A stretch of DNA of 64,000 bases from Xylophilus sp. GW821-FHT01B05 (GTDB taxonomy: Bacteria > Pseudomonadota > Gammaproteobacteria > Burkholderiales > Burkholderiaceae_C): positions 3,038,001 through 3,102,000 of the forward strand of contig CP152408.1 in the NCBI GenBank assembly GCA_038961845.1. The letters run 5' to 3'. Shown here one piece after another: positions 46,556-63,166 of this stretch. The notes below the pieces were generated by a model. The model searched no databases. It was not told the origin of the DNA and saw nothing but the letters and a program-made list of their open reading frames with translations. Numbering within the stretch: the stretch's first letter is position 1; each line of letters starts with the position of its first letter. Made by a program: the position numbers and the translations under genes.

Positions 46556-47347
46556 ATGGCTCCCGTAGTCGTACCGCACGCATCCCCTTCCCACGCCGCC
46601 GCAGAGCGCCAGGTTCGCGAAGACCTGGCAGCGGCCTACCGGCTGGTCGCCCTCTACGGCATGGACGACAGCATCTACACGCACATCTCGGCGCGGGTGC
46701 CGGGCACCGAAGACCAGTTTTTGATCAACCCGTTTGGCATGCTGTTCCGGGACATCACGGCCTCATCCCTGGTCAAGATCGATCTTGAGGGCCGCATCGT
46801 CGAGCCCAGCGACTACGACGTGAACCCGGCCGGTTTCACCATCCACAGCGCGGTGCACGCCGCCCGGCATGACGCCACCTGCGTGCTGCACACCCACACG
46901 GTGGCGGGCGTAGGTGTCTCGTCGCTCGCCTGCGGGCTGCAGCCCTGCAACCAGTGGGCGCTGCAGTTCTACAACCGGGTGACTTATCACGACTTCGAGG
47001 GCATTGCGCTCGACCATGAAGAGCGGGTGCGTCTGGTGGCCGACCTGGGCCCGAGCGCGCGCGCCATGATCCTGCGCAACCACGGCCTGATCACGCTGGG
47101 CCGCACGGTGTCCGAGGCTTTCATCCTCATGCTCAACCTGGAGCGCGCCTGCCGCGTGCAGCTCGCCATCCAGTCCAGCGGCGAGCCCATCCACCCGGTG
47201 CCCGCCGATGTGTGCGAGCGCACCGCGCAGCAATACGAAAGCGGCGACACCAACCGCCAGCCGGGCGACCCCGACCCGAATGCCCGCGAGTGGCGCGCCA
47301 TGCTGCAGCGCCTGGAGCCGGCTTCCTCGGCCTCGTTCCGTACCTGA
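46556..47347 (+). CDS. Class II aldolase/adducin-family protein
   Basis: A 263-residue zinc-dependent aldolase-fold protein. The metal-binding residues appear in CVLHTHTVAG and ILRNHGLITLGRT. The region SIYTHISARVPGTEDQFLINPFG is typical of the proteobacterial subgroup often labelled class II aldolase with unknown substrate. An in-frame TTG at 46499 would extend the protein, but the ATG at 46556 is a better start. It opens a cluster of 15 plus-strand genes that runs to 63166. Confidence 0.88.
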   Translation: MAPVVVPHASPSHAAAERQVREDLAAAYRLVALYGMDDSIYTHISARVPGTEDQFLINPFGMLFRDITASSLVKIDLEGRIVEPSDYDVNPAGFTIHSAVHAARHDATCVLHTHTVAGVGVSSLACGLQPCNQWALQFYNRVTYHDFEGIALDHEERVRLVADLGPSARAMILRNHGLITLGRTVSEAFILMLNLERACRVQLAIQSSGEPIHPVPADVCERTAQQYESGDTNRQPGDPDPNAREWRAMLQRLEPASSASFRT

Positions 47348-47395
47348 ATCCCCCACGTATTTCCTTCCACCTTCTCAACATAGAGGTCCCTCGTC

Positions 47396-48961
47396 ATGAA
47401 ACGTCGCCATCTGATTCAAATGGGTGCCACCGGTCTGGGCGTGTCCATCGCCGGAGTCCCGCTGCATGTGCTGGCACAGGGCAAGAAGGGGGGGACCATC
47501 AATGTCCTGGTGCAGCCAGAGCCGCCCGGGCTGATGATGGGCATCGTGCAGAACGCGCCGACGCAGCTGATCTCCGGCAACATCTACGAAGGCCTGCTGC
47601 GCTACGACGAACAGATCAACCCCAAGCCGCTGCTGGCGAGCTCGTGGACGGTCAATGCCGAAGGCACCGTCTACACCTTCAAGCTCAAGCCCGGCGTCAA
47701 GTGGCATGACGGCAAGCCCTTTACGGCCGACGACGTGGTGTTCTCGGTGGACGTGTTCCTGCGCAAGACCCATGCACGCCTGCGCGGCAACCTGGCCGCG
47801 CTGGAGACGGTCAAGGCGCTGGACCCGCTGACGGTGGAGTTCAAGCTCAAGTACCCGTTCGGCCCCTTCATCGGCCTGTTCGAGACCGGCACCATGCCGA
47901 TGGTGCCCAAGCACATCTATGAAGGCACGGACTTCCTGAACAACCCGGCCAATGCCACGCCCATCGGCACCGGCCCGTTCAAGTTCAAGGAATGGATCAA
48001 GGGCTCTTACATCCAGCTGGTGGCCAACGAGCAGTACCACACGGCGGGCATGCCGATCGTCGAGAAGCTGTACTTCCACGTGATCCCTGACGCCGCCGCG
48101 CGCGCCGCCGCCTTCGAATCGGGCAAGGTAGACATCGTGCCCGGCGGCGCGGTCGAGCTGTTCGACGTGACGCGCCTGTCCAAGCTGCCCGGCGTGGGCA
48201 TCACCAGCAAGGGCTGGGAATTCTTTGCGCCGCATGCCTGGCTGAACGTCAACAACCGCAAGGCGCCGATGGACAACATCAAGTTCCGTCAGGCGCTGAT
48301 GTACGCCATCGACCGCGAAGCCATCTGCAAGATCGCCTGGCAGGGCTTTGCCAAACCCGCCACCGGCCCGTTCAACAGCCACATCAAGTACTACAGCGAA
48401 GACGTGCCCAAGTACCCGCGCAATGTGGAGACGGCCAAGAAGCTGCTGGCCGAAGCCGGCTACAAGGGCGAGGTGCTGCGCCTGCTGCCCCTGCCCTACG
48501 GCGAGACCTGGGCCCGCTCGGCCGAGATCCTGCGCCAGAACCTGGCCCAGGCCGGCATCAAGACCGAGATGGTCGCGACAGACGTTGCCGGCTGGAACCA
48601 GAAGCTCAGCGAATGGGACTACGACCTGGCCTTCAACTACGTCTACCAGTACGGCGACCCGGCGCTGGGCGTGGCGCGCAACTACACCACGGCCAACATC
48701 GCCAAGGGCTCGCCCTTCAACAACGCCGAGGGCTACTCCAACCCCAAGGTCGACGAGCTGTTTGATGCCGGCGCCAAAGAGAACAACCCCGAGAAGCGCA
48801 AAGCCATCTACCTGCAAGTGCAAAAGCTGCTGGTGGAAGAAGCCCCGCTGGCCTGGCTCTACGAGATCAACTTCCCGACGCTCTACCGCACCAAGCTGAA
48901 CAACATCATCAGCTCGGGCATCGGCCTGAACGACAGCCTCAGCGGCGCCTGGCTGAGCTAA
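47396..48961 (+). CDS. Dipeptide-type ABC transporter substrate-binding protein (SBP family 5)
   Basis: Extracellular solute-binding protein of family 5, 521 residues. The leader MKRRHLIQMGATGLGVSIAG has an RR motif that could be Tat-like. The domain blocks LLASSWTVNAEGTVYTFKLK and GVKWHDGKPFTADDVVFSV are standard for DppA/OppA relatives. The ligand may be a peptide, an opine or another amino conjugate. It is followed at once by a family 2 repeat and then by the permease genes. Confidence 0.92.
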   Translation: MKRRHLIQMGATGLGVSIAGVPLHVLAQGKKGGTINVLVQPEPPGLMMGIVQNAPTQLISGNIYEGLLRYDEQINPKPLLASSWTVNAEGTVYTFKLKPGVKWHDGKPFTADDVVFSVDVFLRKTHARLRGNLAALETVKALDPLTVEFKLKYPFGPFIGLFETGTMPMVPKHIYEGTDFLNNPANATPIGTGPFKFKEWIKGSYIQLVANEQYHTAGMPIVEKLYFHVIPDAAARAAAFESGKVDIVPGGAVELFDVTRLSKLPGVGITSKGWEFFAPHAWLNVNNRKAPMDNIKFRQALMYAIDREAICKIAWQGFAKPATGPFNSHIKYYSEDVPKYPRNVETAKKLLAEAGYKGEVLRLLPLPYGETWARSAEILRQNLAQAGIKTEMVATDVAGWNQKLSEWDYDLAFNYVYQYGDPALGVARNYTTANIAKGSPFNNAEGYSNPKVDELFDAGAKENNPEKRKAIYLQVQKLLVEEAPLAWLYEINFPTLYRTKLNNIISSGIGLNDSLSGAWLS

Positions 48962-49049: not shown

Positions 49050-49080
49050 GGTATGAGATGGGCCTGTTCAGCTTTGATGG

Positions 49081-50067
49081 ATGAGTAATGGAATGAAACG
49101 TACGCAATTCATGCTGACCCGGCTGCTGCAGGGTCTGGTGGCGATCTTGCTGATCGCTACCGTCAACTTCATGCTGGTGCGCGCGGCGCCTGGGGACCCG
49201 GTGTCGGTGATGGCCGGCGAGGCCGGCGCGTCTGACCCGCAGTTTGTCGCCCAGCTGCGCGCGCAGTTTGGCTTGGACCAACCCATCACGACACAGCTTG
49301 CCACCTACCTTGGCAAGGTGGTGCGGCTGGATCTGGGCTACTCGTACCGCCAGCAGCAGCCGGTGCTCAAGCTGATCGCCGAGCGCCTGCCCGCCACCTT
49401 GCTGCTGACCGGCAGCGCCTTTGTGCTGTCACTGCTGTTTGGCGTGACGCTGGGGGCGCTGTCGGCGCGCAAGGCCGGCACCTGGGTGGACAGTGCCATC
49501 ACCACGGTGGCGCTGGTGTTCTATGCCACGCCGCTCTACTGGCTGGCGCTGATGGCGGTGTTGGTGTTCAGCGTGCAGCTGGACTGGCTGCCGGGCTTTG
49601 GCTTCAGCACCGTGGGCTCGGACGCCACCGGCCTGGCGCTGGCCTGGGACATTGCCCAGCATCTGGTGCTGCCGGTGCTGACGCTGGCGCTGTTCTACAT
49701 GGCCGTGTATGCGCGCATGACGCGGGCCACCATGCTGGAAGTGGCGCAAATGGATTTTGTGAAGACAGCGCGCGCCAAGGGCGTGAAGCCCGGCCGCATC
49801 CTGCGTGCGCACGTGCTGCGCAATGCGCTGCTGCCGGTGGTCACGCTGGCCGGCATCCAGGCCGGCGGCCTGATCGGCGGCGCCGTGCTGACCGAAACCG
49901 TGTTTGCCTGGCCCGGCCTGGGCCGGCTCATGTTCGATGCCCTGCTGCAGCGCGACTACAGCCTGCTGCTTGGCTCCTTCCTGGTGACTGCGGCCATGGC
50001 CGTGCTGTTCAACCTCATCACCGATCTTGTCTACACGCTGGTCGATCCACGGATTGAATTGACATGA
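49081..50067 (+). CDS. ABC transporter permease, DppB type
   Basis: Inner-membrane permease of the dipeptide/nickel class, 328 residues and about six helices. TVNFMLVRAAPGDPVSVMAG and the EAA loop QMDFVKTARAKGVKPGRI are typical. Two starts are possible: ATG 49081 and ATG 49093 (MKRTQF), the latter preceded by GGATGAG. The stop overlaps the second permease gene (ATGA). Confidence 0.93.
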   Translation: MSNGMKRTQFMLTRLLQGLVAILLIATVNFMLVRAAPGDPVSVMAGEAGASDPQFVAQLRAQFGLDQPITTQLATYLGKVVRLDLGYSYRQQQPVLKLIAERLPATLLLTGSAFVLSLLFGVTLGALSARKAGTWVDSAITTVALVFYATPLYWLALMAVLVFSVQLDWLPGFGFSTVGSDATGLALAWDIAQHLVLPVLTLALFYMAVYARMTRATMLEVAQMDFVKTARAKGVKPGRILRAHVLRNALLPVVTLAGIQAGGLIGGAVLTETVFAWPGLGRLMFDALLQRDYSLLLGSFLVTAAMAVLFNLITDLVYTLVDPRIELT

Positions 50068-50912
50068 CTATCAAGAGCCCATTCTGGCGGCGCTTCTGCC
50101 GCAACAAGGGTGCCGTGGCCGGCATGGTGGTGCTGGCCATCGTCGCCATCGTCGCGGTGTTTGGCCCGTGGATCGCCAGCAACGATCCCTGGGGCATGGT
50201 GCAGCAGCCCTTCCTGCGGCCCTGGGCCGAGCCGGGCTTTGCCATGGGCACCGACACGCTGGGCCGGGACATCATGTCGGGCGTGATCTACGGCGCGCGC
50301 ATCTCGCTGCTGATTGGCGTGGTGTCTACCGTCGTCGCGCTGCTGATCGGCGTCACGCTGGGCGCCATTGCGGGCTACTTCGGTGGCTGGGTTGACGCCG
50401 CGTTGATGCGTTTCACCGAGCTGTTCCAGGCCGTGCCCAGCTTTGCGCTGGCCATCGTGCTGGTGGCGATCTTCCAGCCCTCGGTGGGCTCCATCGTGAC
50501 GGCGATTGCCATCGTTTCCTGGCCGCCGGTGGCGCGCCTGGTGCGCAGCGAATTCCTCACGCTGCGCCAGCGCGACTTCGTGCAGGCCGCGCTGCTGGCC
50601 GGCCAATCCACGCCGCGCATCATCCTCACGCAGATCCTGCCCAACGCCATGTCGCCCATCATCGTGATGGCCTCGCTGATGGTGGCCACGGCCATCCTGC
50701 TGGAGTCCAGCCTGAGCTTTCTGGGCCTGGGCGACCCGAACCAGATGAGCTGGGGCTACATGGTGGGTGCCGCGCGCACGGTGCTGCGCCAAGCCTGGTG
50801 GATGGCGCTGTTCCCCGGTCTGGCCATCGTGCTGACCGTGCTGGCGCTCAACCTGGTGGGCGAAGGCCTCAACGATGGGCTCAACACCCGCCTGGACGGG
50901 AGAACCAAATGA
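50064..50912 (+). CDS. ABC transporter permease, DppC type
   Basis: Second permease of the importer, 282 residues. The N-terminal block FWRRFCRNKGAVAGMVVLAI, FAMGTDTLGRDIMSGVIYGA and the EAA loop QRDFVQAALLAGQSTPRII are typical of DppC/OppC. It overlaps both neighbours by 4 nt. Confidence 0.94.
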   Translation: MTIKSPFWRRFCRNKGAVAGMVVLAIVAIVAVFGPWIASNDPWGMVQQPFLRPWAEPGFAMGTDTLGRDIMSGVIYGARISLLIGVVSTVVALLIGVTLGAIAGYFGGWVDAALMRFTELFQAVPSFALAIVLVAIFQPSVGSIVTAIAIVSWPPVARLVRSEFLTLRQRDFVQAALLAGQSTPRIILTQILPNAMSPIIVMASLMVATAILLESSLSFLGLGDPNQMSWGYMVGAARTVLRQAWWMALFPGLAIVLTVLALNLVGEGLNDGLNTRLDGRTK

Positions 50913-52570
50913 GTGCCGCCGTGACACCCCTGAAGACTTCGCAGCCGGTGCTCGACATCGTCGGCCTGAGCATCTCGCTACCCCAGGGCGCTGACCGCGC
51001 GCTGGCGGTGGAAGGCGCCAAGCTTTCCCTGCTGCCCGGCCAGACGCTGTGCGTGGTGGGCGAATCCGGCTCCGGCAAATCGATGATCGCCAATGCCGTG
51101 ATGGGCCTGCTGCCGCGCCCGCATGTGGCGCCGGTGGCCGGCAAGATTCTGTTCGAAGGCACCGACCTGCTGACCTTGAGCGAAGCGCAGATGCGTGAGC
51201 TGCGCGGTCGGCGCATCGGCATGGTGTTCCAGGAGCCGATGACGGCACTGAACCCGGTGATGCGCATTGGCGAGCAGATCGGCGAAGTGTTCGACGCCCA
51301 CGGCCATGTGCCCGCGGCCGAGAAGCGCCAGCGCATCCTGGCCGCGCTGGCCGACGTCGGCCTGCCCGAGCCCGAGCTGCTGATCGACAGCTACCCGTTC
51401 CGCCTATCCGGCGGCCAACGCCAGCGCGTGATGATCGCCTGCGCCCTGGTGCTGGAGCCCCTGCTGCTGATCTGCGACGAGCCCACCACCGCGCTCGACG
51501 TAACCACCCAGGCGCAGATCCTGAAGCTGGTGCGCGAGCTGCAGCAGCGCCGTGGCACCGCCGTGCTGTTCATCACGCATGACTTCGGCGTGGTGTCGGA
51601 GATCGCCGACCAGGTGGTGGTGATGCAGACCGGCAAGGTGGTCGAATCCGGCCCGGCGCGCCAGGTGCTGGATGCGCCGCAGCACCCCTACACGCGCAAG
51701 CTGATCGCCGCCATCCCTACTGGCCAGGCAGAGCCTCTGGCGCGCTCGGACGAGATCACCCGCGTGCTGCAGGTGCAGGACCTGTGCAAGACCTACCAGT
51801 CGGGCGGCAGCCTGTTCAAGCGCGGCCGCTCGGTGCAGGCCGCCAAGGACATCAGCTTCGACCTGCTGCGGGGCGAGACGCTGGGGCTGGTGGGTGAATC
51901 CGGCTCGGGCAAATCCAGCGTGGGCCGCTGCCTGGTGGGCCTGGCGCCCTTCGACAGCGGGCGCATCCTGTTCAAGGGCCGCAACCTGCCGCAGGGCGAC
52001 GCCTTCCGGCGCGAGGCCGCGGGCAAGATCCAGATGGTGTTCCAGGACCCATACGCGTCGCTGAATCCGCGCCACCGCATTGGTGCCGCCATCGCCGGCG
52101 GCCCGATTGCACAAGGCGTGAGCAAATCCGAAGCCATGGCCCGCACCATGGAGCTGCTGCAACTGGTCGGCCTGGGCGCCGATGCCGCGCAGCGCTATCC
52201 GCACGAATTCTCGGGCGGGCAGCGCCAGCGCATCGGCATTGCCCGCGCGCTGGCCATGCAGCCCGAGCTGCTGGTGGCCGACGAGCCGGTGTCGGCACTC
52301 GACGTGTCGGTGCAGGCGCAGGTGCTTAAATTGTTTGCCGAGGTGCGCGAGCGCTTCAAGCTTGCCATGGTGTTCATCACGCACGACCTGCGCGTGGCCG
52401 GCGAGATGTGCGACCACATCGCGGTGATGCAGCGCGGCGCCATCGTCGAATACGGCGAGACGCACAAGGTGCTTCGCGATCCGCAGCATGCTTACACCCG
52501 CACCTTGATCGACGCCGTGCCGCGCCTGAACTCGGCCGCAGACCGCAGCCTGGAGGTACGCCAGGCATGA
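50909..52570 (+). CDS. Fused dual ABC ATPase, DppD-DppF type
   Basis: A single 553-residue protein carries both ATPase domains of a dipeptide-type importer. Walker A GESGSGKS appears near residues 51 and 329, and signatures LSGGQRQR and FSGGQRQR near 166 and 434. A Pro-containing C-terminal region follows each domain, as in OppD and OppF. The start was set at the ATGA overlap with the permease stop. The fusion is common in Burkholderiales and completes the transporter. Confidence 0.94.
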
Positions 52571-53511
52571 GCAAAGCCCCCACCATCGCCTTCCTCAGCA
52601 GCCAGATCGAGATGGGCTACCTGCTGCCGTCCTTTCAAGCCCAGTTCCCCGGTGCCGACTTGCGGCTGACGAAGGAGCTGGGCGCGTTGGACGAAATAGA
52701 CGCCGCCGTCTGCTGGTACCCGCCCGAAGGCCTGCTGGCGCGCATGCCCAAGCTGCAGCTGGTGCAATCCGTTGGCGCCGGCATAGACCACATCACGCTC
52801 GACCCCGCGCTGCCCGCCGTGCCGGTCTGCCGCATCGTCGACACCGACATGGCCAGCGGCATGAGCGCCTATGTGACCTGGGCCGTGATCCAGCACCAGC
52901 GCAGCATGGGCAGCTACATCGCCAACGCGGCGGCGCGCCGCTGGCAAGAGCAACCCGTGGTGCCGCCGCGCCTGCACCGCGTCGGCATTGCCGGCCTGGG
53001 CACGCTGGGCCTGGCCTGCGCTCGCGCGCTGCAAACCCTTGGCTACAGCGTGCGCGGCTGGAGCCGCAGCCCCAAAACCGAGCTGCCCGCAGGCGTCGAA
53101 TCCTTCCACGGCGACGCTGGCCGGGCCGCGTTCCTGGCGGGCTGCGACACCCTGGTCTGCCTGCTGCCGCTGACCGAAGAAACCCGCGGCTTCCTGTGCA
53201 CCGAGCTGTTTGCGCAGTTGCCACGCGGCGCGCACCTTATCAACGTGGGCCGTGGCGCGCATCTGGTCGAGGCCGATCTGCTGCAGGCCCTGGCCGATGG
53301 CACGCTGGGCGCCGCCACGCTCGATGCGCTGACGCAAGAGCCGCTGCCGGCCGATCACCCCTTCTGGCAAGACCCGCGCATCCTCGTCACGCCGCATATC
53401 GCCACGCGCACGCACCCCTCGGTCATTGCGCGCCAGACCCACGACAACCTGCTGCAGATCCGCAGCGGCCGGGCTGCGGCCGTGGCCGTGGACCTGACAC
53501 GGGGCTACTGA
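52567..53511 (+). CDS. D-isomer-specific 2-hydroxyacid dehydrogenase (GhrA-like)
   Basis: NAD(P)-dependent reductase of 314 residues. The nucleotide-binding motif is GIAGLGTLGLACARAL. The catalytic Arg lies in INVGRGAHLVEADLL, the Glu in LTQEPLPADHPFW and the His in VTPHIATRTHP. GhrA-type enzymes reduce glyoxylate and hydroxypyruvate, so it may handle a 2-oxoacid released by the aminotransferases or aldolase. It starts by an ATGA overlap with the ATPase gene. Its stop overlaps the ATG that opens a family 2 repeat. Confidence 0.9.
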   Translation: MSKAPTIAFLSSQIEMGYLLPSFQAQFPGADLRLTKELGALDEIDAAVCWYPPEGLLARMPKLQLVQSVGAGIDHITLDPALPAVPVCRIVDTDMASGMSAYVTWAVIQHQRSMGSYIANAAARRWQEQPVVPPRLHRVGIAGLGTLGLACARALQTLGYSVRGWSRSPKTELPAGVESFHGDAGRAAFLAGCDTLVCLLPLTEETRGFLCTELFAQLPRGAHLINVGRGAHLVEADLLQALADGTLGAATLDALTQEPLPADHPFWQDPRILVTPHIATRTHPSVIARQTHDNLLQIRSGRAAAVAVDLTRGY

Positions 53512-53704: not shown

Positions 53705-55096
53705 ATGACAACAGACTCTGCAACAAGAACCACCATGAGCGCACCCACCCCTCTCGCGGCCAAGGACATTGCCGCCCACCTGCACCCCTTCACCAACCTG
53801 GCCGCCCACGGGCAGGTCGGGCCGCTGGTCATCACGCGCGGCGACGGCATCCATGTAGAGGACGAGCAGGGCCGCCGCTATATAGAAGGCATGTCGGGCC
53901 TGTGGTGCAGCGCGCTGGGCTTCAGCCACCCGCGCCTGGTCGCGGCCGGCACCAAGGCGCTGCAGACGCTGCCCTACTACCACACCTTCAACCACCGCAC
54001 CAACCCGGCCGTGGCGGAGCTGTCGGAAAAGCTGCTGTCCATCGCACCGGTACCGATGGCGCGCGTGTTCTTTGCCAACTCGGGCTCCGAGGCCAACGAC
54101 ACGGCGGTGAAGATGGTCTGGTACTACCACAACGCCATCGGCAAGCCGGGCAAGAAGAAGATCATCGCGCGGCAAAAGGCCTACCACGGCGTGACCGTGG
54201 CCGCCGCCAGCCTGAGCGGCCTGGCGGCCAACCACACCGACTTCGACCTGCCGATAGACCGCATCCTGCATGTCGACTGCCCGCACCACTACCGCTACGG
54301 CCAGCCCGGCGAGAGCGAGGCCGACTTTGCCACCCGCCTGGCCAACGCACTGGAGCAGCGCATCCTGGCCGAAGGCCCCGACACCGTGGCGGCCTTCTTT
54401 GCCGAGCCGGTCATGGGTGCGGGCGGCGTGCTGGTGCCGCCAGAGACCTACTTCGAGAAGGTGCAGGCCGTGCTGCGCAAGTACGAGGTGCTGCTGGTGG
54501 CCGACGAGGTGATCTGCGGCTTTGGCCGCACCGGCAACATGTTTGGCTCGACCACCTACGGCATGCAGCCCGACATCCTGACCTGCGCCAAGGCGCTGTC
54601 GTCGGGCTACGTGCCGATCTCTGCCGTCATGGTGTCGGCGCAGGTGCATGCGGCGCTGGCCGCCAACAGCGGCAAGATCGGCACCTTCGGCCACGGCTAT
54701 ACCTACTCTGGCCACCCGGTGGCCTCGGCCATCGCGCTGGAGAACCTCAAGGTCTACGAGGACGAGGGCATCATTGCCCACACCCAGGCGCTGACGCCGC
54801 AGTTCCAGGCGGCACTGCGCCACTACGCACAGCACCCGCTGGTGGGCGAGGCGCGCGGCGTGGGCCTGATCGGGGCGCTGGAGCTTGTCGCCGACAAGGC
54901 CAGCAAGCAGCCCTTCGCCACCACCGTCAAGGCCGGCCCGCGCGTGGCCGAGCTGGCGCTGCAACAAGGCCTGATCGTGCGCGCCATGGGTGACACCATC
55001 GCGCTGTGCCCGCCGCTGATCATCACCAGCACCGAACTTGACGAGATGTTCCAGCGCCTGACCCGCGCGCTGGAGCTGTTCACCGCCGAGGTCTGA
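53705..55096 (+). CDS. Class III aminotransferase (omega-amino acid/polyamine:pyruvate type)
   Basis: PLP-dependent aminotransferase of 463 residues. GLWCSALGFSHPRLVAAG and YYHTFNHRTNPAVAELSEKL resemble polyamine- or beta-alanine:pyruvate transaminases. The substrate-anchoring block NSGSEANDTAVKMVWYY is conserved, and the PLP lysine is Lys296 in CAKALSSGY. It would move a terminal amino group to pyruvate. An alternative ATG lies ten codons downstream (53735). It ends 2 nt before the first deacetylase gene. Confidence 0.92.
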   Translation: MTTDSATRTTMSAPTPLAAKDIAAHLHPFTNLAAHGQVGPLVITRGDGIHVEDEQGRRYIEGMSGLWCSALGFSHPRLVAAGTKALQTLPYYHTFNHRTNPAVAELSEKLLSIAPVPMARVFFANSGSEANDTAVKMVWYYHNAIGKPGKKKIIARQKAYHGVTVAAASLSGLAANHTDFDLPIDRILHVDCPHHYRYGQPGESEADFATRLANALEQRILAEGPDTVAAFFAEPVMGAGGVLVPPETYFEKVQAVLRKYEVLLVADEVICGFGRTGNMFGSTTYGMQPDILTCAKALSSGYVPISAVMVSAQVHAALAANSGKIGTFGHGYTYSGHPVASAIALENLKVYEDEGIIAHTQALTPQFQAALRHYAQHPLVGEARGVGLIGALELVADKASKQPFATTVKAGPRVAELALQQGLIVRAMGDTIALCPPLIITSTELDEMFQRLTRALELFTAEV

Positions 55097-55098
55097 GC

Positions 55099-56151
55099 AT
55101 GCAGGCCTTCTTCTCCCCCGAGCAGTTGCTGCACACACCGCAGCAGTTCATGCGCCTGGGGCGCATCCGCAAGCCCACCGACCTGCCCGCGCGTGCCGAG
55201 GCGCTGCAAAGCGCACTAGAGGCCCTGGGCATTCCGGTATCGGCACCACCCGAGTACGGCCGCGCGCCGCTGGAGCAGGTGCACAGCAGCGACTACCTCG
55301 ACTACCTGGAGCACGCCTACGCCCGCTGGCAGACGCTGGGCCAGCAGGGGCTGGAGCCGGGCATCGAGGTGCTGCCCAATCTGTCGCCCTATTACAGCGG
55401 CCAGCAGGGAGTGCAGCGCGCGCCCTGCCCTTCGCCCTCAGTCGTGGCGCAAACGGGCTATTACCTCAGCGATCTGTCTTGCCCCATCGGGCCGCAAACC
55501 TGGCGCGCCGTGCTGCGCTCGGCCCACAGCGCGGTAGCTGCGGCCGATGCCGTGTGCGCTGGCGCAGCGGCCGCCTATGCGCTGTGCCGCCCCTCGGGCC
55601 ACCATGCGCACCGTGACCGCGCGGGCGGCTTTTGCTACGTCAACAACAGCGCCACGGCTGCAGCGCGCCTGCTGCAGACCTTTGGCCGGGTTGCCGTGCT
55701 GGACGTGGACGCCCACCATGGCGACGGCACGCAGCAAATCTTCTACGACAGCGCCGACGTGATGACGGTATCTACCCACGCCGAAACGGCCAACTACTAC
55801 CCCTTCTATACCGGCTACCCGCACGAGCGCGGCCACGGTGCGGGCCTGGGCTGCAACCTGAACCTGCCGCTGGCGCATGGCAGCGGCAATGCCGAGTTCA
55901 TGGCCGCCGTTGACCAGGCCTGCGCTGCGCTGCGCGACTTCGCGCCCAAGGCGCTGGTGCTGCCGCTGGGCTTCGACACCTACAAGGACGACCCGATCAG
56001 CGTGCTCAAGCTCGACTTCGACGCCTACCGCGCCGTGGGCGAGCGCGTGCGCCAACTCGGCCTGCCCACCGTGGTGGTGCAAGAAGGCGGCTACATGGTC
56101 GAGGCCATCGGCCCCGGCCTCACGGCCTTCCTGCAGGGCCTGCACGGCTAA
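55099..56151 (+). CDS. Histone-deacetylase-fold amidohydrolase 1 (acetylpolyamine amidohydrolase-like)
   Basis: A zinc amidohydrolase of the arginase/deacetylase fold, 350 residues. The catalytic His pair is in RPSGHH (164-169), the zinc residues in DVDAHHGDG (202-210) and LGFDTYKDDP, and the transition-state Tyr in QEGGYM. Bacterial members of this size include acetylpolyamine amidohydrolases, which remove acetyl groups from acetylputrescine, acetylcadaverine and similar amines. A second member is encoded at 59819 in the same cluster. Confidence 0.92.
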   Translation: MQAFFSPEQLLHTPQQFMRLGRIRKPTDLPARAEALQSALEALGIPVSAPPEYGRAPLEQVHSSDYLDYLEHAYARWQTLGQQGLEPGIEVLPNLSPYYSGQQGVQRAPCPSPSVVAQTGYYLSDLSCPIGPQTWRAVLRSAHSAVAAADAVCAGAAAAYALCRPSGHHAHRDRAGGFCYVNNSATAAARLLQTFGRVAVLDVDAHHGDGTQQIFYDSADVMTVSTHAETANYYPFYTGYPHERGHGAGLGCNLNLPLAHGSGNAEFMAAVDQACAALRDFAPKALVLPLGFDTYKDDPISVLKLDFDAYRAVGERVRQLGLPTVVVQEGGYMVEAIGPGLTAFLQGLHG

Positions 56152-56167
56152 GGTTTGGACTCAAGCA

Positions 56168-57427
56168 ATGAAGCAAACCTTGAACATCAACGGCGGCCGT
56201 CTGTGGGACTCGCTGATGGCACTGGCCCAGGTCGGCGCCACGCCCAAGGGCGGCAACTGCCGGCTCGCGCTGTCGGCACTCGACGGCCAGGGCCGCGACC
56301 TGGTGGTGGGCTGGATGCGCGCCGCCGGCCTGCAGATCACGGTCGATGCGGTCGGCAACATCTTCGGCGTGCGCCCCGGGCGCAACCCGGCCCTGGCCCC
56401 GGTGGCCACCGGCAGCCATATCGACACGCAGCCCACCGGCGGTAAGTTCGACGGCTGCTTTGGCGTGCTGGCCGGGCTGGAAGTCATGCGCACGCTGCAA
56501 GAGCACGGCATAGAAACCGAGGCGCCGCTGGCGCTGGTGATCTGGACCAATGAAGAAGGCACGCGCTTCGTGCCGGTGATGATGGGCTCGGGCGTGCACT
56601 GCGGCGTCTTCCCGCTGGAAACGGCGCTGTCAGCGGTCGATGCGCAAGGCATGTCGGTGCGCAACGAGCTGGCCGCCATCGGCTATGCGGGCACGGCGCC
56701 CATAGGCACGGTGCGGCCGGGCCGCTACTTCGAGGCGCATATCGAGCAAGGCCCGATCCTGGAGGCCGAAGACACCGTCATTGGCGTGGTCACCGGCTCG
56801 CTCGGCCTGCGCTGGTACGACGTGACCGTGACCGGCATGGAGGCCCACGCCGGCCCCACGCCCATGGCCCTGCGCCGCGACGCGCTCTATGCCGCCACGC
56901 ACCTGATGCAGGCCGTGGTGGACATTGCCAATGACCCAGACTTTGCACCGCACGGGCGCGGCACGGTTGGCACGGTCGGCGTGCACCCCAACTCGCGCAA
57001 CGTGATCCCCGGGCAGGTCACCTTCACCGTAGACCTGCGCCACCAGGATGCGGCCCGCCTCGACCTGATGGAGCAGCGTTTTCGCCAGGCTGCCGCCGCA
57101 CTTGCCGACGGCAGCACCACCGGCCACGCAATGGACGTGAAGGTGGTGGATGTGCAAGAGTTCCCGCCCACGCCCTTTGCCGCCGACATGGTGGATGCCG
57201 TGCGCCAGCAGGCCGTGGCGCGCGGCTACAGCCAGCGCGACATCATCACCGGCGCCGGCCATGACGCGGTCTACATGGCGCGCCAGGTGCCCACGGCGAT
57301 GATCTTCGTGCCGTGCAAAGACGGCATCAGCCACAACGAGATCGAAGACGCCGACCCGCGCCACCTCGAAGCCGGTGCCAACGTGCTTTTGGGCGCCCTG
57401 CTGACCCACGCCGGAGCTATTGCTTGA
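56168..57427 (+). CDS. Zn-dependent M20 hydrolase (N-carbamoyl-L-amino acid hydrolase / allantoate amidohydrolase type)
   Basis: A dimeric metallo-amidohydrolase of 419 residues. ATGSHIDTQPTGGKFDGCFG contains the metal-binding His and Asp, WTNEEGTRF the Glu pair, and ITGAGHDAVYMA the third His. The family (hydantoinase/carbamoylase) cleaves carbamoyl, ureido and some acylamino groups. The frame is open upstream inside the previous gene; the ATG at 56168 gives the normal start. The TGA overlaps a TTG start for the next gene. Confidence 0.92.
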   Translation: MKQTLNINGGRLWDSLMALAQVGATPKGGNCRLALSALDGQGRDLVVGWMRAAGLQITVDAVGNIFGVRPGRNPALAPVATGSHIDTQPTGGKFDGCFGVLAGLEVMRTLQEHGIETEAPLALVIWTNEEGTRFVPVMMGSGVHCGVFPLETALSAVDAQGMSVRNELAAIGYAGTAPIGTVRPGRYFEAHIEQGPILEAEDTVIGVVTGSLGLRWYDVTVTGMEAHAGPTPMALRRDALYAATHLMQAVVDIANDPDFAPHGRGTVGTVGVHPNSRNVIPGQVTFTVDLRHQDAARLDLMEQRFRQAAAALADGSTTGHAMDVKVVDVQEFPPTPFAADMVDAVRQQAVARGYSQRDIITGAGHDAVYMARQVPTAMIFVPCKDGISHNEIEDADPRHLEAGANVLLGALLTHAGAIA

Positions 57428-58329
57428 GCAGCGCGACTGCAGTCGGCGCTCTTCCAGCCGCACGTGCCAGCCAGCGGCACGGCATCGCCCTGTTCCTGGG
57501 CGCGCTGGTGGCCTTTGCCTGCTACGACGCCTTTGCCAAGCAGATGGTGGCAAGCTACCCGCCCACGGTCGTCAACCTGGGCCGCTACGTGGCAATCAGC
57601 GCCATGGCGCTGGTACTGCTGCTGCGCCATGGCCGCACACACGACATGCGCCTCTGGCGCCAGCCGCACCAAAAGCTGCTGACCCTGCGCAGCCTGATGC
57701 TGGCCATCGTCGCCACCTGTTTCATGACCGCGCTGGTGAGCATGCCGCTGGCCGAGGCCACCGCCATCTACTTCACCGCGCCGCTGGTCATGGTGGCCGT
57801 CTCGCCCTGGCTGCTGGGCGAGCGGGTGGGCCGCATCCAGTGGACGGCGGTGATGCTGGGCTTTGCGGGCATGCTGCTCATCGTGCGTCCGGGCGGCAGC
57901 CTGCCGCTGGTGGGCACGCTGCTGATGGCGGTGTCGGCCGTCTGCTATGCGATGTTCCAGGTGCTCACGCGCCGGCTGTCGGGCCTGGTGCCTGCGCCGG
58001 TGCAGTTCGCCCACATGGCGCTGGTCTGCCTGGTGGTAACCAACCTGCCCGCCGTCTTCATGCCCCATGTGGCGCTGCCACCCTGGCCGCAAATGCTGAT
58101 GCTGATCGCCGGTGGTGCTTGCAGTGGCGTTGCGCAACTGATGCTGCTTGCGGCGTTTCGCCGCGTGGGCGCTGCTACGCTCGCGCCGCTCAACTATGTA
58201 CAACTGATGCTGGCCGTGCTGATCAGCACCCTGTGGTTCCAGCGGCCGCCAGACGGCCTGGCCCTGGCCGGCATGGCACTGATCGCGGTGGCAGGCGTCT
58301 ACCTGGCACGCGCACGCCGCCCGGCCTGA
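57424..58329 (+). CDS. DMT-superfamily (EamA) transporter
   Basis: A 301-residue membrane protein with ten predicted helices in two EamA repeats. The first repeat begins ALFLGALVAFACYDAFAKQM, and a GERVGRIQWTAVMLGFAGML block is typical. No ATG or GTG fits near the start; the TTG at 57424 overlaps the upstream stop (TTGA) and was chosen. Such proteins usually export amino acids, amines or metabolites, so it may remove an excess intermediate. Confidence 0.87.
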   Translation: MSSATAVGALPAARASQRHGIALFLGALVAFACYDAFAKQMVASYPPTVVNLGRYVAISAMALVLLLRHGRTHDMRLWRQPHQKLLTLRSLMLAIVATCFMTALVSMPLAEATAIYFTAPLVMVAVSPWLLGERVGRIQWTAVMLGFAGMLLIVRPGGSLPLVGTLLMAVSAVCYAMFQVLTRRLSGLVPAPVQFAHMALVCLVVTNLPAVFMPHVALPPWPQMLMLIAGGACSGVAQLMLLAAFRRVGAATLAPLNYVQLMLAVLISTLWFQRPPDGLALAGMALIAVAGVYLARARRPA

Positions 58330-58353
58330 ACCGCCCAGAGACAAGGACCCAAC

Positions 58354-59067
58354 ATGCCCCGACCAAAAACCATATCAACACCGGTGTTCGGCCCGATCGA
58401 CGAAGCCCATTCGCCCGCCTTCGCGTCCATCCAGGTCCCCGACCTGGTCGGTGTGATCGAGGCCCAGCTGCAACAGGCCATTCTGGCCGGCCGCCTCGCC
58501 CCCGGCGAGCGCATTGTCGAGGCCGAGCTGGCGCGCCAGATGGGCGTGAGCCGCGCCCCCGTGCGCGAGGCCGCGCGCCGGCTAGAGAGCCTGGGCCTGC
58601 TGGTATCCCGCCCGCGCCACGGCTTTGCGGTGCGCACGGTGTCCGTCAAGCAGGTGGATGACCTGTACGAGGTACGCATCAACCTAGAGCTGATGAGCGC
58701 GGCGCTGGCCTGCCAGCACGCCACCGACGCCCAGCTGGCCCACCTCGATGTGTTGGTGGACGAGATGGTGGCGCAGGCCGAGGCGCTGGCGCCCGCCGAG
58801 CGCGTGGCCATGGACCTGGCCTTTCACTCGACCATCAGTGAGCTTTCGGGCAACGAGTACCTGCAGCGCCTGTTCGACAACATGCAGACCGAGGTGCGGA
58901 TGTTCCTCGCGCTCAGTGAAGACAGCTACGGCGACCTGAAGGCGCTGGCCGAAACCCACCGCCCCATTGCCCAGGCGCTGGCACAGCGCGACGTGGCCGC
59001 CGCCCAGCATGCGCTGCGCTTTCACCTGGAAGACGCCAAGGCCCACGCACGCGGCCTGTTTTTGTAG
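58354..59067 (+). CDS. GntR-family transcriptional regulator with FCD domain
   Basis: A 237-residue repressor-type protein. The winged helix includes GRLAPGERIVEAELARQMGV and SRAPVREAARRLESLGL, and the C-terminal helical FCD domain has the metal/effector His residues (DLAFHSTISEL, ETHRPIAQAL). It lies inside the catabolic cluster and is the obvious candidate for its control. The dyad at 46471 is a possible target. FCD regulators usually sense a carboxylate or amino-acid intermediate. Confidence 0.92.
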   Translation: MPRPKTISTPVFGPIDEAHSPAFASIQVPDLVGVIEAQLQQAILAGRLAPGERIVEAELARQMGVSRAPVREAARRLESLGLLVSRPRHGFAVRTVSVKQVDDLYEVRINLELMSAALACQHATDAQLAHLDVLVDEMVAQAEALAPAERVAMDLAFHSTISELSGNEYLQRLFDNMQTEVRMFLALSEDSYGDLKALAETHRPIAQALAQRDVAAAQHALRFHLEDAKAHARGLFL

Positions 59068-59069
59068 CC

Positions 59070-59789
59070 ATGGATACCAGTGCGCTGCCCACACCAGCCA
59101 AGGTCGCCATGGTCAGCGGCGGCAACCGCGGCATTGGCCTGGCCATTGCCCGCGAGCTGCTGGACCATGGCTGGCGCGTGAGCATTGGCGCGCGCAGCAG
59201 CACCGATGCTTTTGCCGGCTACGCGCCCAGCCAGCTGCGGCGCTACCACTTCAACGCACAAGACCCGCAGAGCGAGACTGACTGGGTGGCCGCCACCGCG
59301 GCGGACTTTGGCCGCATCGACGCACTGGTGCACAACGCCGGCATCCTCAGTACCCGCTCGGTCATTGACGCGGACGACGCAGAGGTCGACCGGCTGCTGG
59401 AAGTCAACGTCAAGTCACCGCTGCGCCTTACCCGCAAGGCCTGGCCGCACCTGGTGGCGGCCGGCGAGAGCAAGGTGCTGGTCATGGCATCGCTCGCCGC
59501 CAAGCGGGTGCGCGCCGCCGATGCATCGCTGTATGCGCTCAGCAAATCCGCCGTGCTGGCGCTGGCCCACGGCATCCGCCATTGCGGTGCCGACAGCCGG
59601 GTGCGCTGCACCGCGCTGTGTCCGGGCTTTGTCGCCACAGACATGGCGGCGGCGCTGGCGCCCGGGCAGCGCCAGCAAGTCACCCAGCCGCAAGACGTGG
59701 CACGCATCGCCCGCATGGCGCTGGAGCTGCCCGCCTCCGCCAGCGTGGCCGAGATCCCGATCAGCTGGACGGTCGAGCCGCAGTACTGA
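59070..59789 (+). CDS. Short-chain dehydrogenase/reductase
   Basis: NAD(P)-dependent SDR of 239 residues. The cofactor motif is SGGNRGIGLAIARELL, and the NAG motif appears as VHNAGILS. The catalytic residues are the Ser in MASLAAKR and the Tyr and Lys in YALSKSAV. It starts 2 nt after the regulator gene. The substrate is unknown; oxidation of a hydroxyl group or reduction of a semialdehyde in the pathway is plausible. Confidence 0.92.
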   Translation: MDTSALPTPAKVAMVSGGNRGIGLAIARELLDHGWRVSIGARSSTDAFAGYAPSQLRRYHFNAQDPQSETDWVAATAADFGRIDALVHNAGILSTRSVIDADDAEVDRLLEVNVKSPLRLTRKAWPHLVAAGESKVLVMASLAAKRVRAADASLYALSKSAVLALAHGIRHCGADSRVRCTALCPGFVATDMAAALAPGQRQQVTQPQDVARIARMALELPASASVAEIPISWTVEPQY

Positions 59790-59818
59790 ACCCCATCCTC
59801 ACAACACACACGCAGCCC

Positions 59819-60847
59819 ATGAAAGTCGTCTACAGCGATCAGCACCAGGACCACGACCCGCAGCAGTTCATCGTGCGCGGGCGCATGAAGCGCAGCAACG
59901 AGCAGCCCGAGCGCGCCTGGCGCCTGCTGGCCGCCGCACGCGCGCAGGGCCACGACATCGTGGCGCCGGACGACCACGGCCCCGGCCCGCGCGCGGCCAT
60001 CCACACGCCGCAGTACCTGCACTTTCTGGAAACCGCCTGGGAGCGCTGGCAGCAGTTGGACGACCCGTCAGAAGAGGTGATGCCCAACATCCACCCCTTC
60101 CCCGGCCAGCCCTTCACCTACCCCGACAGCCTGGTGGGCCAGGCCGGCTACCACATGGGCGACACCGCCTGCAGCATCGGCCGCAACACCTGGCATGCCG
60201 CCACGCAATCGGCGCACGTGGCCACGCATGCGGCGCAACTGGTGCTGGAGGGCGAGCGCGTCAGCTACGCCCTGTGCCGCCCGCCGGGCCACCACACCTA
60301 TGCAGATCGCGCCAATGGCTTTTGCTACCTGAACAACGCCGCCATTGCCGCGCAGCACCTGCGCCAGCGCCATGCGCGCGTGGCCATACTGGATGTGGAT
60401 GTGCACCACGGCAACGGCACGCAGGGCGTGTTCTGGCGCCGCAATGATGTGCTCACCATCTCGCTGCACGGCGACCCGCATTTCTGCACGCCCTTCTTCA
60501 CCGGCCACGCGCACGAGCGCGGCGAAGGCGATGGCCTGGGCTACAACATCAACCGCCCGCTGGCACGCGGCACCGACACCGATGCCTACCTGGCCGAGCT
60601 GAAGCGCGCCTGCACCGACATCCGCGCCTATGCCCCCGGCGCGCTGGTGGTGGCACTGGGCCTGGACGCGCATGAGCACGACCCCTACCGCGCGCTGGCC
60701 GTCACCACCGAAGGCTTTGCCCGCATCACCGCCGAGATCGCCCGGCTCGGCCTGCCCACCGTGCTGGTGCAGGAAGGCGGCTACCTGTCGGATGACCTGG
60801 GCCCCAACCTGGCCAGCGCCTTGAGTGGCTTTGCGGCGGCCGCATGA
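59819..60847 (+). CDS. Histone-deacetylase-fold amidohydrolase 2 (acetylpolyamine amidohydrolase-like)
   Basis: A 342-residue zinc amidohydrolase with RPPGHH (154-159), DVDVHHGNG (192-200), LGLDAHEHDP and QEGGYL. It is related to the deacetylase at 55099 but clearly diverged. Its N-terminus (MKVVYSDQHQDHDPQQFIVRG) matches the acetylpolyamine amidohydrolase type better. The frame is open upstream in the SDR gene; the ATG at 59819 was chosen. The stop overlaps the kinase start (ATGA), so the two products are probably made in step. Confidence 0.92.
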   Translation: MKVVYSDQHQDHDPQQFIVRGRMKRSNEQPERAWRLLAAARAQGHDIVAPDDHGPGPRAAIHTPQYLHFLETAWERWQQLDDPSEEVMPNIHPFPGQPFTYPDSLVGQAGYHMGDTACSIGRNTWHAATQSAHVATHAAQLVLEGERVSYALCRPPGHHTYADRANGFCYLNNAAIAAQHLRQRHARVAILDVDVHHGNGTQGVFWRRNDVLTISLHGDPHFCTPFFTGHAHERGEGDGLGYNINRPLARGTDTDAYLAELKRACTDIRAYAPGALVVALGLDAHEHDPYRALAVTTEGFARITAEIARLGLPTVLVQEGGYLSDDLGPNLASALSGFAAAA

Positions 60848-61890
60848 ATGATCTGCCCGAAGCGGCCGTGCTGAGCGCGCCCGCCGCCCCCGTGCCCGCC
60901 GCCTGGGCTGCCGCGCTGCTGCAAGAACACTACGGCCTGGCCGGCGACCTGAGTGCGCTCACGGGTGAGCGCGATGCCAACTTCCTGCTCAGCGAGCCCA
61001 CCGGGCGCCGCATGCTGAAGGTGTCGCACCCCATTGAGTCGCCGCTGGTGGCCGACTTCCAGACCCAGGCGCTGCTGCACATCGCCGCCACCGACCCCGG
61101 CCTGCCGGTGCAGCGGCTGCTGCCTACGCTCGGCGGCGCGCACTCCTTCATCGCCCAGGCGCCCGACGGTGCCGCGCGCGTGGTGCGGCTGTTCAGCTAC
61201 CTGGAAGGCCTGCCCATGCCGCAGGCGCCGCGCTCGGCCGCGCAGCGCGCCAGTGTGGGCAGCATGCTGGCCCGGCTGGACCGCGCACTGGCGGGCCTCA
61301 AGCACCCGGCCGGCGCGCTGGAGCTGCCCTGGGACATCCAGCGCGCCCACCGCGTGCGCGGCCTGCTGGCCCATGTGCCAGACGCCCATCGCCGCGCGCT
61401 GGCCGGCCGCGCCCTGGACCGCTTCGAGCAGCACGCCCTGCCCCGGCTGGCCACGTTGCGCCGCCAGCCCATCCACAACGACTTCAACATCTACAACCTG
61501 CTGGTCGACCCGGCCGCGCCGCAGCAGGTGGCCGGCATCCTCGACTTTGGCGACATGGTCGAGGCACCCATGGTCAACGACCTGGCCGTGGCCGCCTCTT
61601 ATCAGCTCGACGAGCAAGGCGACGCGCTGGCCACCATCGCCGCCTTTGCCGGCGCCTACCACGCGGTGCTGCCGCTGCAGCCGGCCGAGCTCGATGTGCT
61701 GCTGGACCTGGTGCGTGCGCGCCTGGCCATGGTGGTCGCCATCAGCGGCTGGCGCGCCGCCCGCCAGCCCGACAACGCCGCCTACCTGCTGCGCAACAAC
61801 GCCGTGTCCTGGGCGCGGCTGCAGGCCTGCGATGCCATCACTGACACACAAGCCCGCGACGCATTGTTTGCGGCCTGCCCCCAAGCCTGA
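60844..61890 (+). CDS. APH-fold small-molecule kinase (hydroxylysine kinase-like)
   Basis: A 348-residue aminoglycoside-phosphotransferase-fold kinase. The catalytic loop is HNDFNIYN (His211-Asp213) and the metal site DFGD is at 234-237, in the context GILDFGDMVEAPMVNDLAVA. That context is close to hydroxylysine kinase and related hydroxy-amino-acid kinases rather than to antibiotic-resistance enzymes. It overlaps the upstream deacetylase gene and is 1 nt from the following PLP enzyme. The likely role is phosphorylating the hydroxyl group of an amino alcohol or hydroxy amino acid. Confidence 0.87.
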   Translation: MNDLPEAAVLSAPAAPVPAAWAAALLQEHYGLAGDLSALTGERDANFLLSEPTGRRMLKVSHPIESPLVADFQTQALLHIAATDPGLPVQRLLPTLGGAHSFIAQAPDGAARVVRLFSYLEGLPMPQAPRSAAQRASVGSMLARLDRALAGLKHPAGALELPWDIQRAHRVRGLLAHVPDAHRRALAGRALDRFEQHALPRLATLRRQPIHNDFNIYNLLVDPAAPQQVAGILDFGDMVEAPMVNDLAVAASYQLDEQGDALATIAAFAGAYHAVLPLQPAELDVLLDLVRARLAMVVAISGWRAARQPDNAAYLLRNNAVSWARLQACDAITDTQARDALFAACPQA

Positions 61891-61891
61891 T

Positions 61892-63166
61892 ATGACCACC
61901 ACCCCTGAGCTTCTTGCCCGCCGCGCCCGCCTGCTGGGCCCGGCCTACCGGCTGTTCTATGAAGAGCCGCTGCACCTGGTGCGCGGCGAAGGCGTCTGGC
62001 TGTACGACGCCGACGGCCAGCGCTACCTGGACGCCTACAACAACGTTGCCTGCGTTGGCCACTCGCACCCGCAGGTGGTGCAGGCCATGGCGCAGCAGGC
62101 GGCCACGCTCAACACCCATACCCGCTACCTGCACGAAAGCGTGCTGGACTACGCCGAGCGCCTGCTGGCCACGCTGCCACCCGCGCTGGGCCACACCATC
62201 TTCACCTGCACCGGCAGCGAGGCCAATGACTTGGCCATGCGCATCGCGCGTGCCCACACCAAAGGGCGCGGCCTGATCGTGACCCGGTTCGCCTACCACG
62301 GCGTGACTTCGTCGATTGCCGAGGCATCGCCCTCGCTCGGCCGCTTCGTGCAGTTGGGCGAACACGTGCGCACCGTGCCCGCACCCGACAGCTACCGCTG
62401 CGCGCCCGATCAACTGGGCAGCGTCTTTGCCGCCGGCGTGCGCGCCGCCATCGCCGACCTGCAGGCCCAGGGCATTGCGCCCGCCGCGCTGCTGGTGGAT
62501 ACGGTGTTCTCCAGCGACGGCGTCTGCACCGCGCCCGCCGGCTTCCTGCAAGAGGCCGCCAACGCCATCCGCGAGGCCGGTGGCCTGTTCATCGCGGACG
62601 AGGTCCAGCCCGGCTTTGGCCGCACGGGCGAGGCCTTCTGGGGTTTCATGAACCACGGCGTGGTGCCCGACATCGTCACCATGGGCAAGCCCATGGGCAA
62701 CGGCCACCCGGTAGCGGGCCTGGCGGTGCGGCCTGAAGTGCTGGCCACATTCGGCCAGGAGTGCCGCTACTTCAATACCTTTGGCGGCAACCCGGTATCC
62801 ATGGCCGCGGCCACGGCCGTGCTCGACGTGATCCAGGGCCAAGGCCTGCAGCGCAATGCGCTGGAGGTGGGCCAGTACCTGCGCACGCAACTGCAAGCCC
62901 TGGCCCAGCGCCACGAGGCCATTGGCGACGTGCGCGGTGCCGGCCTGTTCGTGGGGCTGGAACTGGTCACCGACCGCGCCGCCAAAACCCCGGCCACCGC
63001 CCTGGCCGCGCAGGTCGTCAACGGCATGCGCCGGCAGCAGGTGCTGCTGGGCGCCACCGGCGAACACGCCAACACACTGAAGATCCGGCCGCCGCTGGTG
63101 TTTGCCCGCGCCCATGCGGATGAGCTGGTGGGCAAGCTGGACCAGGTGCTGACGGCGCTGCGTTGA
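61892..63166 (+). CDS. Class III PLP enzyme, phospho-lyase (ETNPPL/PHYKPL) type
   Basis: A fold-type I PLP protein of 424 residues. Although the family is named for aminotransferases, DAYNNVACVGHSHPQVVQA and TMGKPMGNGHPVAGLAV (PLP Lys266) match ethanolamine-phosphate and 5-phosphohydroxylysine phospho-lyases. These remove phosphate and ammonia to leave an aldehyde. Pairing with the kinase gene 1 nt upstream supports this reading. The alternative is an ordinary omega-transaminase. Confidence 0.88.
   Translation: MTTTPELLARRARLLGPAYRLFYEEPLHLVRGEGVWLYDADGQRYLDAYNNVACVGHSHPQVVQAMAQQAATLNTHTRYLHESVLDYAERLLATLPPALGHTIFTCTGSEANDLAMRIARAHTKGRGLIVTRFAYHGVTSSIAEASPSLGRFVQLGEHVRTVPAPDSYRCAPDQLGSVFAAGVRAAIADLQAQGIAPAALLVDTVFSSDGVCTAPAGFLQEAANAIREAGGLFIADEVQPGFGRTGEAFWGFMNHGVVPDIVTMGKPMGNGHPVAGLAVRPEVLATFGQECRYFNTFGGNPVSMAAATAVLDVIQGQGLQRNALEVGQYLRTQLQALAQRHEAIGDVRGAGLFVGLELVTDRAAKTPATALAAQVVNGMRRQQVLLGATGEHANTLKIRPPLVFARAHADELVGKLDQVLTALR

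Follow-up and report, generated by a model that had tools for sequence, protein, structure and literature searches.

The window analysed here is a 64,000-nucleotide stretch (positions 3,038,001 to 3,102,000 of contig CP152408.1) of Xylophilus sp. GW821-FHT01B05, whose genome is a single contig of 5.83 Mb. At 46556-63166 it carries 15 genes encoding, among others, a dipeptide-type ATP-binding cassette (ABC) importer, two deacylases (hdac1, hdac2), a small-molecule kinase (kin), a pyridoxal phosphate (PLP)-dependent phospho-lyase (ply), a GntR/FCD regulator, an aldolase-like protein (ald), a hydroxyacid dehydrogenase (hadh), an omega-aminotransferase (wta), an M20 hydrolase (m20), an exporter-like protein (dmt) and a short-chain dehydrogenase (SDR). 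The cluster is real, conserved, modular and apparently co-regulated, and its 15 genes do not make up a single fixed pathway. We consider it probable that this is a modular, GntR-controlled cluster for N-acylated amines, with a core for import and deacylation to which a kinase and phospho-lyase acting on a vicinal amino alcohol have been added.

Conservation and modular make-up

The kin query matched 27 of 299 genomes of the phylum, and a contig scan with kin gave 79 loci (relatives were encoded in 86 of 126 stretches, of which the best 80 were kept); gene counts at the loci rest on tblastn. kin was found together with hdac2 (at least 55% identity) in 55 of 148 sequences, the window included, and all of these except L039 keep most of the gene order of the window where covered, a shared order which argues that the arrangement is not due to chance. 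Identity to the window across the 55 loci ranged from 46 to 74% for kin, 64 to 79% for ply, 60 to 94% for hdac2 and 42 to 76% for hadh, with L039 at the low ends. Forty-eight loci were comparable, having at least 9.4 kb 5´ of kin (the window and L039 were exempt from this length rule, and L098 was dropped as a duplicate of L031). Since the loci were found with kin and filtered on hdac2, these two genes are present in 48/48 by construction; the ATPase and the regulator were likewise present in all 48, the dehydrogenase in 47, and wta and dmt in 46 each. Counts were 32 for hdac1, 12 for the SDR and four for M20, one of which (L079) lies 3´ of ply, leaving three in the operon position. The M20 and SDR genes are, judging by this distribution of homologues, minority accessories.

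Among 200 genomes of the family, hdac2 was detected in nine (E ≤ 1e-110) and ply in 11 (E ≤ 1e-150). The eight genomes with hdac2 at no less than 80% identity, that of the window included, are the eight with ply at no less than 68%, and in 8/8 ply starts 1.05-1.35 kb past the end of hdac2 with kin in between. For the ninth family hdac2 (L185, 53% identical), no ply was present in the 19.5 kb read. Two further genomes of the genus to which the window belongs have neither hdac2 nor ply at the same E-values, and the cluster is thus patchy.

Across 398 genomes of the phylum, hdac2 (E ≤ 1e-45) was found in 89 and ply (E ≤ 1e-100) in 44, and 23 hdac2 and five ply regions were scanned. Twelve core loci, ranging from Comamonadaceae to distant Pseudomonadota, all have a GntR/FCD regulator, a dipeptide-type importer and hdac2, accompanied by ald in 11 and by hadh in 10. 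In six distant genomes (L152, L153, L155, L156, L161 and L172), the regulator and hdac2 genes are transcribed divergently to the importer operon, and most of these loci also have ald and hadh, but kin and ply are absent from all six; at L156, a different class III aminotransferase (30% identical to ply) is found in the core region. L039, from genome G200, has the same core layout with kin and ply appended. The core proteins of G200 are 92-97% identical to those of G217, a genome of the same genus, but kin and ply occur in G200 only, with neither present in the 7 kb past hadh in G217; this contrast indicates a stable core that has acquired the pair in one case or shed it in the other. On these comparisons of gene content, kin and ply are an added block on an older core in Comamonadaceae and Cupriavidus. 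An earlier note, made from the DNA alone, had read the 15 genes as steps of one pathway, a view not supported in that form, given the scarcity of the M20 and SDR genes in operon position and the occurrence of the core without kin and ply in six distant genomes.

A putative operator shared by core loci

The palindrome TGTCGACA, which lies inside CTGTCGACAG and has its sole exact copy in the window 5´ of ald, occurs once per locus, 5´ of the first gene of the importer operon (ald, or the binding protein gene sbp), in 12/12 core loci including the window. Its context 5´ of ald in core loci is mostly TTGTCGACAGTTT or CTGTCGACAG; three further loci of the family agree, and at L152, where the importer comes first in the operon, the palindrome precedes the importer. 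A locus was counted as core if it has the regulator, the importer and hdac2 and if its promoter region is covered, which leaves out L182, L184, L186 and most Burkholderiales loci, whose sequence starts too late. None of the four loci at which an ald paralogue lies elsewhere than in this cluster (L142-L145) has the palindrome. Over all loci, some of them overlapping, the background was 42 sites in 2.85 Mb, core sites included, or 0.006 per 430 bases; as the loci are related, we claim no p-value. With one mismatch permitted, 29 sites were found in the window versus 16 expected, so only the exact site is informative. The GntR protein may bind TGTCGACA, which we regard as its putative operator.

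The window might instead hold two or more unrelated adjoining pathways, one an M20-importer-hdac1-DMT unit and the other an hdac2-kinase-lyase unit. Partial units of this sort do occur: L130, of the same order as the window, has an M20-importer-hdac1 (75%)-DMT block, with the other parts of the cluster not seen in the sequence covered, L131 has hdac1 and m20 (44/50%), and L177 has an importer, hdac2 (48%) and m20. However, the window has a single importer and a single exact palindrome for both units, the palindrome also stands ~155 bp 5´ of the first gene of the L130 m20 operon, and hdac1 is found together with hdac2, kin and ply in 32/48 loci. Separate pathways seem unlikely to us. The earlier note had held that conservation of sub-blocks alone, in unrelated contexts, would refute its proposal; the core and the L130 block do stand on their own, so the objection applies in part, but one putative operator is common to the core loci, the window and the L130 sub-block.

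Kinase and phospho-lyase

The top PDB matches of ply are 5g4i (407 bits) and 6tor (378 bits; Ethanolamine-phosphate phospho-lyase), with the next family at 182 bits. The MGKPMGNGHP block, which holds the PLP lysine, is common to all three, and in these alignments ply is closer to known phospho-lyases than to transaminases. Its nearest solved relative is the 5g4i phospholyase, which we take to be an Arthrobacter enzyme with that activity. In kin, the motifs HNDFNIYN and ILDFGD, corresponding to the HxDxxxxN catalytic loop and a DFG-like motif, are intact, and H211, D213, N218, D234 and G236 are invariant in 25 sequences; no PDB sequence match to kin was found. kin resembles the N-terminal part of PRK06148 and, weakly, homoserine kinase (44 bits versus a cut-off of 271). 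Breakdown of homoserine (acyl-homoserine lactone, AHL), considered because of the latter match, was rejected since ply belongs to the terminal-amine lyases. The long PRK06148/PRK06149 fusions correspond to kin in their N-terminal part and to ply in their C-terminal part, whereas here the two are separate proteins without the middle stretch.

A human kinase/lyase pair turns hydroxylysine into 2-aminoadipate semialdehyde, and hydroxylysine kinase and phosphohydroxylysine/ethanolamine-phosphate phospho-lyases were reportedly described by Veiga-da-Cunha in 2012. The human pair comprises a kinase and then a class III PLP lyase, as here, and long blocks of conserved sequence are common to ply and 6tor; in contrast to the human pair, kin and ply are tied to an importer, deacylases of the acetylpolyamine amidohydrolase (APAH) type, a transaminase and a GntR regulator. 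Ethanolamine-phosphate phospho-lyase is a 1,2-elimination enzyme according to one article (PMC8154272), and elimination of phosphate and ammonia by ply would fit this analogy.

Given that ply is similarly near 5g4i and 6tor, the substrate could be the amide of a simple amino alcohol, N-acyl-ethanolamine or N-acyl-1-amino-2-propanol, leading to an ordinary ethanolamine-phosphate lyase. We think this quite improbable, as it leaves the omega-transaminase (46/48 loci), the two deacylases, the M20 enzymes and the hydroxyacid dehydrogenase unexplained.

Pairs of kin and ply homologues were also seen in other surroundings. At L187 and L188 (G197, another family), they lie near wta homologues (52-54%), and L187 also has an hdac2 homologue (46%), within ~10 kb. 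Rhizobium pairs (L117, L118, L120, L121 and L125) share neighbours, which at L117 comprise a gene with a SIS domain and genes for a ROK regulator and for a binding protein of the SBP_bac_1 family, and these neighbourhoods are perhaps for a sugar-linked amine. Pseudomonas pairs (L100, L102 and L104) stand beside an SBP_bac_8 binding protein and SDR-like and GntR-like proteins.

Deacylases, amide hydrolases and associated enzymes

hdac1 and hdac2 can be aligned to solved APAHs (3q9b, 6phr, 3men and 9gkz), with the same fold family and catalytic motifs: RPxGHH, DVDxHHGxG, LGxD and EGGY are present in both, leaving the catalytic His-His, Asp-x-His, Asp and Tyr motifs intact. An acetylpolyamine utilisation cluster would be expected to have a PotABCD-type importer, whereas the cluster here has the Dpp/Opp type and differs from it in this respect. 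Elsewhere (for example L158, L163 and L173), the neighbours of hdac2 are a different aminotransferase of class III and a probable BKACE/DUF849 protein, read as such by eye.

An amide hydrolase gene starts within 3.5 kb 3´ of ply in 24/47 loci (those with 2.5 kb 3´ of ply). The types are ArgE/DapE in 12, M20D in eight and amidase in six, two loci having ArgE plus amidase; the L068 amidase match is 35%, and the L082 amidase is 3.3 kb off. They share the strand of ply in 7/12, 8/8 and 4/6 cases, respectively. The background more than 6 kb from kin, ply or hdac matches was four in 650 kb, equal to 0.02 per 3.5 kb or ~1 expected in 47, a rough guide because the query proteins come from the same loci and the species are related. 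ArgE types were also found beside kin in four loci of a single genus (L037, L038, L040 and L042), close to either hdac2 or the importer in L152, L153, L156 and L173, and further away in L111 and L112. At L172 an amidase follows the core, and in L061 and L071 (related contigs) an M20D gene lies ahead of kin and ply, with no hdac2 in the sequence covered. The recurring amide hydrolases point to acylated amines, amino acids in particular.

In eight Variovorax loci, a common block 3´ of the cluster contains a Leu/Ile/Val-type binding protein, accompanied by a DapA-like protein in 6/8 and a FAD-oxidoreductase-like protein in five to six; at L072 a proline-racemase-like protein was recognised by eye. 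This block, which rests on simple GC-rule gene calls with many wrong-strand frames, resembles hydroxyproline catabolism.

These neighbours bear on another candidate substrate, N-acylated or peptide-bound 5-hydroxylysine. Here the M20 enzyme or amidase would free the alpha amine and the deacylases the epsilon amine, and kin and ply would yield 2-aminoadipate semialdehyde. The recurrence of N-acyl amino acid-type hydrolases by ply, and of ArgE types near kin, hdac2 or the importer in further loci, speaks for it, and the hydroxyproline-like block is a weak fit. On the other side, no allysine dehydrogenase is found among the 15 genes. Further genes (TctC, or HipA-like ones judged by eye), moreover, intervene before the hydroxyproline-like block, which was seen in Variovorax only and has a DapA match under the family cut-off. 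We hold this substrate to be improbable.

For ald, the best PDB match was 3ocr and the next adducin. The HTHT and RNHG metal motifs are present in the window protein and in 7/8 relatives checked, the L066 sequence starting inside the gene and having RNHG only. The aldolase label is doubtful because the stretch before the first histidine, NPAGFTIHSA, resembles NQAGFTLHSA of adducin 1; the catalytic acid of FucA is Glu73, ahead of the first histidine. In hadh, VGRG, EPLPxxHP and VTPH are intact and the match to the GhrA model is under its cut-off, and m20 scored 413 bits with TIGR01879 (cut-off 204) and has the metal motifs GSHIDT, NEEGTRF and HIEQG.

Layout and surroundings of the cluster

All 15 named genes are intact open frames (Table 1). 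Neighbouring genes overlap by 4 bp in five pairs, and the gaps are 131 bp 5´ of permB, 193 bp 5´ of wta and at most 48 bp elsewhere; the start of dmt is uncertain, with an in-frame TTG at 57424. Pfam searches covered 10 genes of the cluster (Aldolase_II, 2-Hacid_dh_C, Aminotran_3, Hist_deacetyl twice, Peptidase_M20, EamA, GntR with FCD, adh_short and APH), and the importer genes and the phospho-lyase were covered by NCBIfam and PDB searches. The single-strand arrangement with frequent overlaps and the gene families named in the earlier note were thus confirmed.

Table 1. Genes of the cluster and associated sequence elements (window positions)
Feature	Position	Strand	Assignment and evidence
ald	46556..47347	+	class II aldolase/adducin-like metal protein; PF00596 3.4e-50, HTHT and RNHG motifs
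sbp	47396..48961	+	dipeptide/nickel-type binding protein; NCBIfam/PDB searches
permB	49093..50067	+	DppB/OppB-type permease
permC	50064..50912	+	DppC/OppC-type permease
atp	50909..52570	+	DppD/DppF-type ATPase, fused
hadh	52567..53511	+	GhrA-like 2-hydroxyacid dehydrogenase; PF02826
wta	53705..55096	+	omega-aminotransferase, class III, PRK06105 subfamily; 738 bits vs cut-off 517
hdac1	55099..56151	+	acetylpolyamine-amidohydrolase-like deacylase; PF00850, top PDB match 3men, catalytic motifs
m20	56168..57427	+	N-carbamoyl-amino-acid hydrolase type, accessory; PRK09290.1-3 and TIGR01879 over cut-off
dmt	57424..58329	+	EamA exporter-like; PF00892
gntr	58354..59067	+	GntR/FCD regulator; PF00392, PF07729
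sdr	59070..59789	+	short-chain dehydrogenase, accessory; PF00106
hdac2	59819..60847	+	acetylpolyamine-amidohydrolase-like deacylase, part of conserved core; PF00850
kin	60844..61890	+	APH-fold small-molecule kinase; PF01636
ply	61892..63166	+	ETNPPL/PHYKPL-type PLP phospho-lyase; 5g4i 1.1e-120, 6tor 4.5e-112
56-nt repeat, hairpin-like core	46216..46271		outside 5´ end; repeat search
56-nt repeat	63182..63237		outside 3´ end; repeat search
putative GntR operator TGTCGACA, inside CTGTCGACAG	46473..46480		palindrome; sole exact copy in 64-kb window

The two 56-nt repeats are 77% identical, and a related repeat beyond each end fits the cluster being a single expression unit. Transcription may stop at the 5´ repeat, which is not among the candidates of the terminator scan of the window (11 candidates versus 8.5 ± 3.2 in shuffled sequence); a promoter scan of the window gave no sites. 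GC content along the window does not shift at either end of the cluster in a way that would suggest recent acquisition.

An IS1182-family transposase gene starts just 3´ of the cluster (63364-63999) and runs off the window. Related 49-nt repeats lie in the two long gaps of the cluster (48994-49042 and 53552-53600) and perhaps represent a mobile intergenic element. On the same strand 5´ of the cluster, an ABC permease and ATPase (43879-46232) are nearest to 2-aminoethylphosphonate-type models, far under the cut-offs.

Proposed pathway and candidate substrates

In the pathway that we propose for N-acylated amines, the acylated amine would enter by the dipeptide-type ABC transporter and hdac2 would remove the acyl group in the cytosol, with hdac1 or M20, ArgE or amidase enzymes serving other acyl forms. 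kin would then phosphorylate the hydroxyl adjacent to the primary amine, and ply would release phosphate and ammonia by elimination, leaving an aldehyde or ketone; wta might act on a further amine or on the product, and ald and hadh would usually act on one of the products. The import and deacylation steps are suggested by the conserved gene content and motifs, and the kin and ply step by the reaction established for relatives in the ply family; from these we infer the reaction order and the vicinal amino alcohol as kin substrate. The sequence of uptake, deacylation, phosphorylation and phospho-lyase elimination put forward in the earlier note fits the family evidence and the conserved neighbourhood, including the amide hydrolases that recur by ply.

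Our leading guesses for the substrate are N-acyl-2-hydroxyputrescine first and N-acyl-5-hydroxylysine second, neither of which we would place above about one in four. 2-Hydroxyputrescine is a diamine that contains a vicinal amino alcohol, as required, and it also fits the mainly betaproteobacterial distribution of the cluster. To our knowledge, no catabolic route has been assigned to 2-hydroxyputrescine. A dedicated pathway for acyl-2-hydroxyputrescine, in which kin and ply, added to an acyl-amine regulon with an older core for import and deacylation, would form 4-aminobutanal, is a doubtful but conceivable form of the proposal. 2-Hydroxyputrescine is described as usual in nodule-forming Burkholderia and Cupriavidus (PMC10385936) and present in Lampropedia cohaerens (PMC5015223) and in a Massilia (PMC9028926). 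Among the matches listed in literature searches, titles and abstract openings held no catabolic route for 2-hydroxyputrescine and nothing on this gene set, and no work combining acetylpolyamine with a phospho-lyase was found; the passages that one article (PMC12930750) devotes to hydroxy-lysine give no pathway. Two other pathways were rejected: breakdown of pantoate/pantothenate, with hadh and ald on the pantoyl half and wta on beta-alanine, leaves kin and ply unexplained, and hydroxyectoine breakdown lacks a DoeA-like gene among the 15.

Several observations weigh against the proposed N-acylated amine cluster or against parts of it. Two acidic residues that contact the polyamine in the Mycoplana enzyme, E106 and E117 of 3q9b, are replaced in the alignment by V106 and A117 in hdac2, with an Asp two places off at 115, a difference from the APAHs that argues against an ordinary acetylpolyamine substrate and also counts against 2-hydroxyputrescine. 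The neighbouring M20 and amidase genes point to an N-acyl amino acid more than to a plain diamine. G200 is outside the class of the window, which weakens the link to 2-hydroxyputrescine, and no aldehyde dehydrogenase is found among the 15 genes, the rest of the genome not having been searched for one. As to the core, hadh is absent from the sequence covered at L152 and L153, and ald also at L152. The looser relative L177, left out of the core because it has no regulator, combines importer, hdac2 and m20, and no regulator, aldolase, dehydrogenase or TGTCGACA was seen in its 19.5 kb. Finally, two independent recruitments of kin and ply are unsupported: a quick tree set L039 apart, but a joined tree was 18 log units better, and in the kin and ply tree a single clade including G200 was unrejected (p-AU 0.815).

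If the proposal is true, three kinds of enzyme that so far have no assigned role (APAH-like deacylases, adducin-like aldolases and kinase/phospho-lyase pairs that stand free) would gain one, and the cluster would provide an example of a new catabolic step joined to an existing regulon, one that the common palindrome makes easy to trace and to test.

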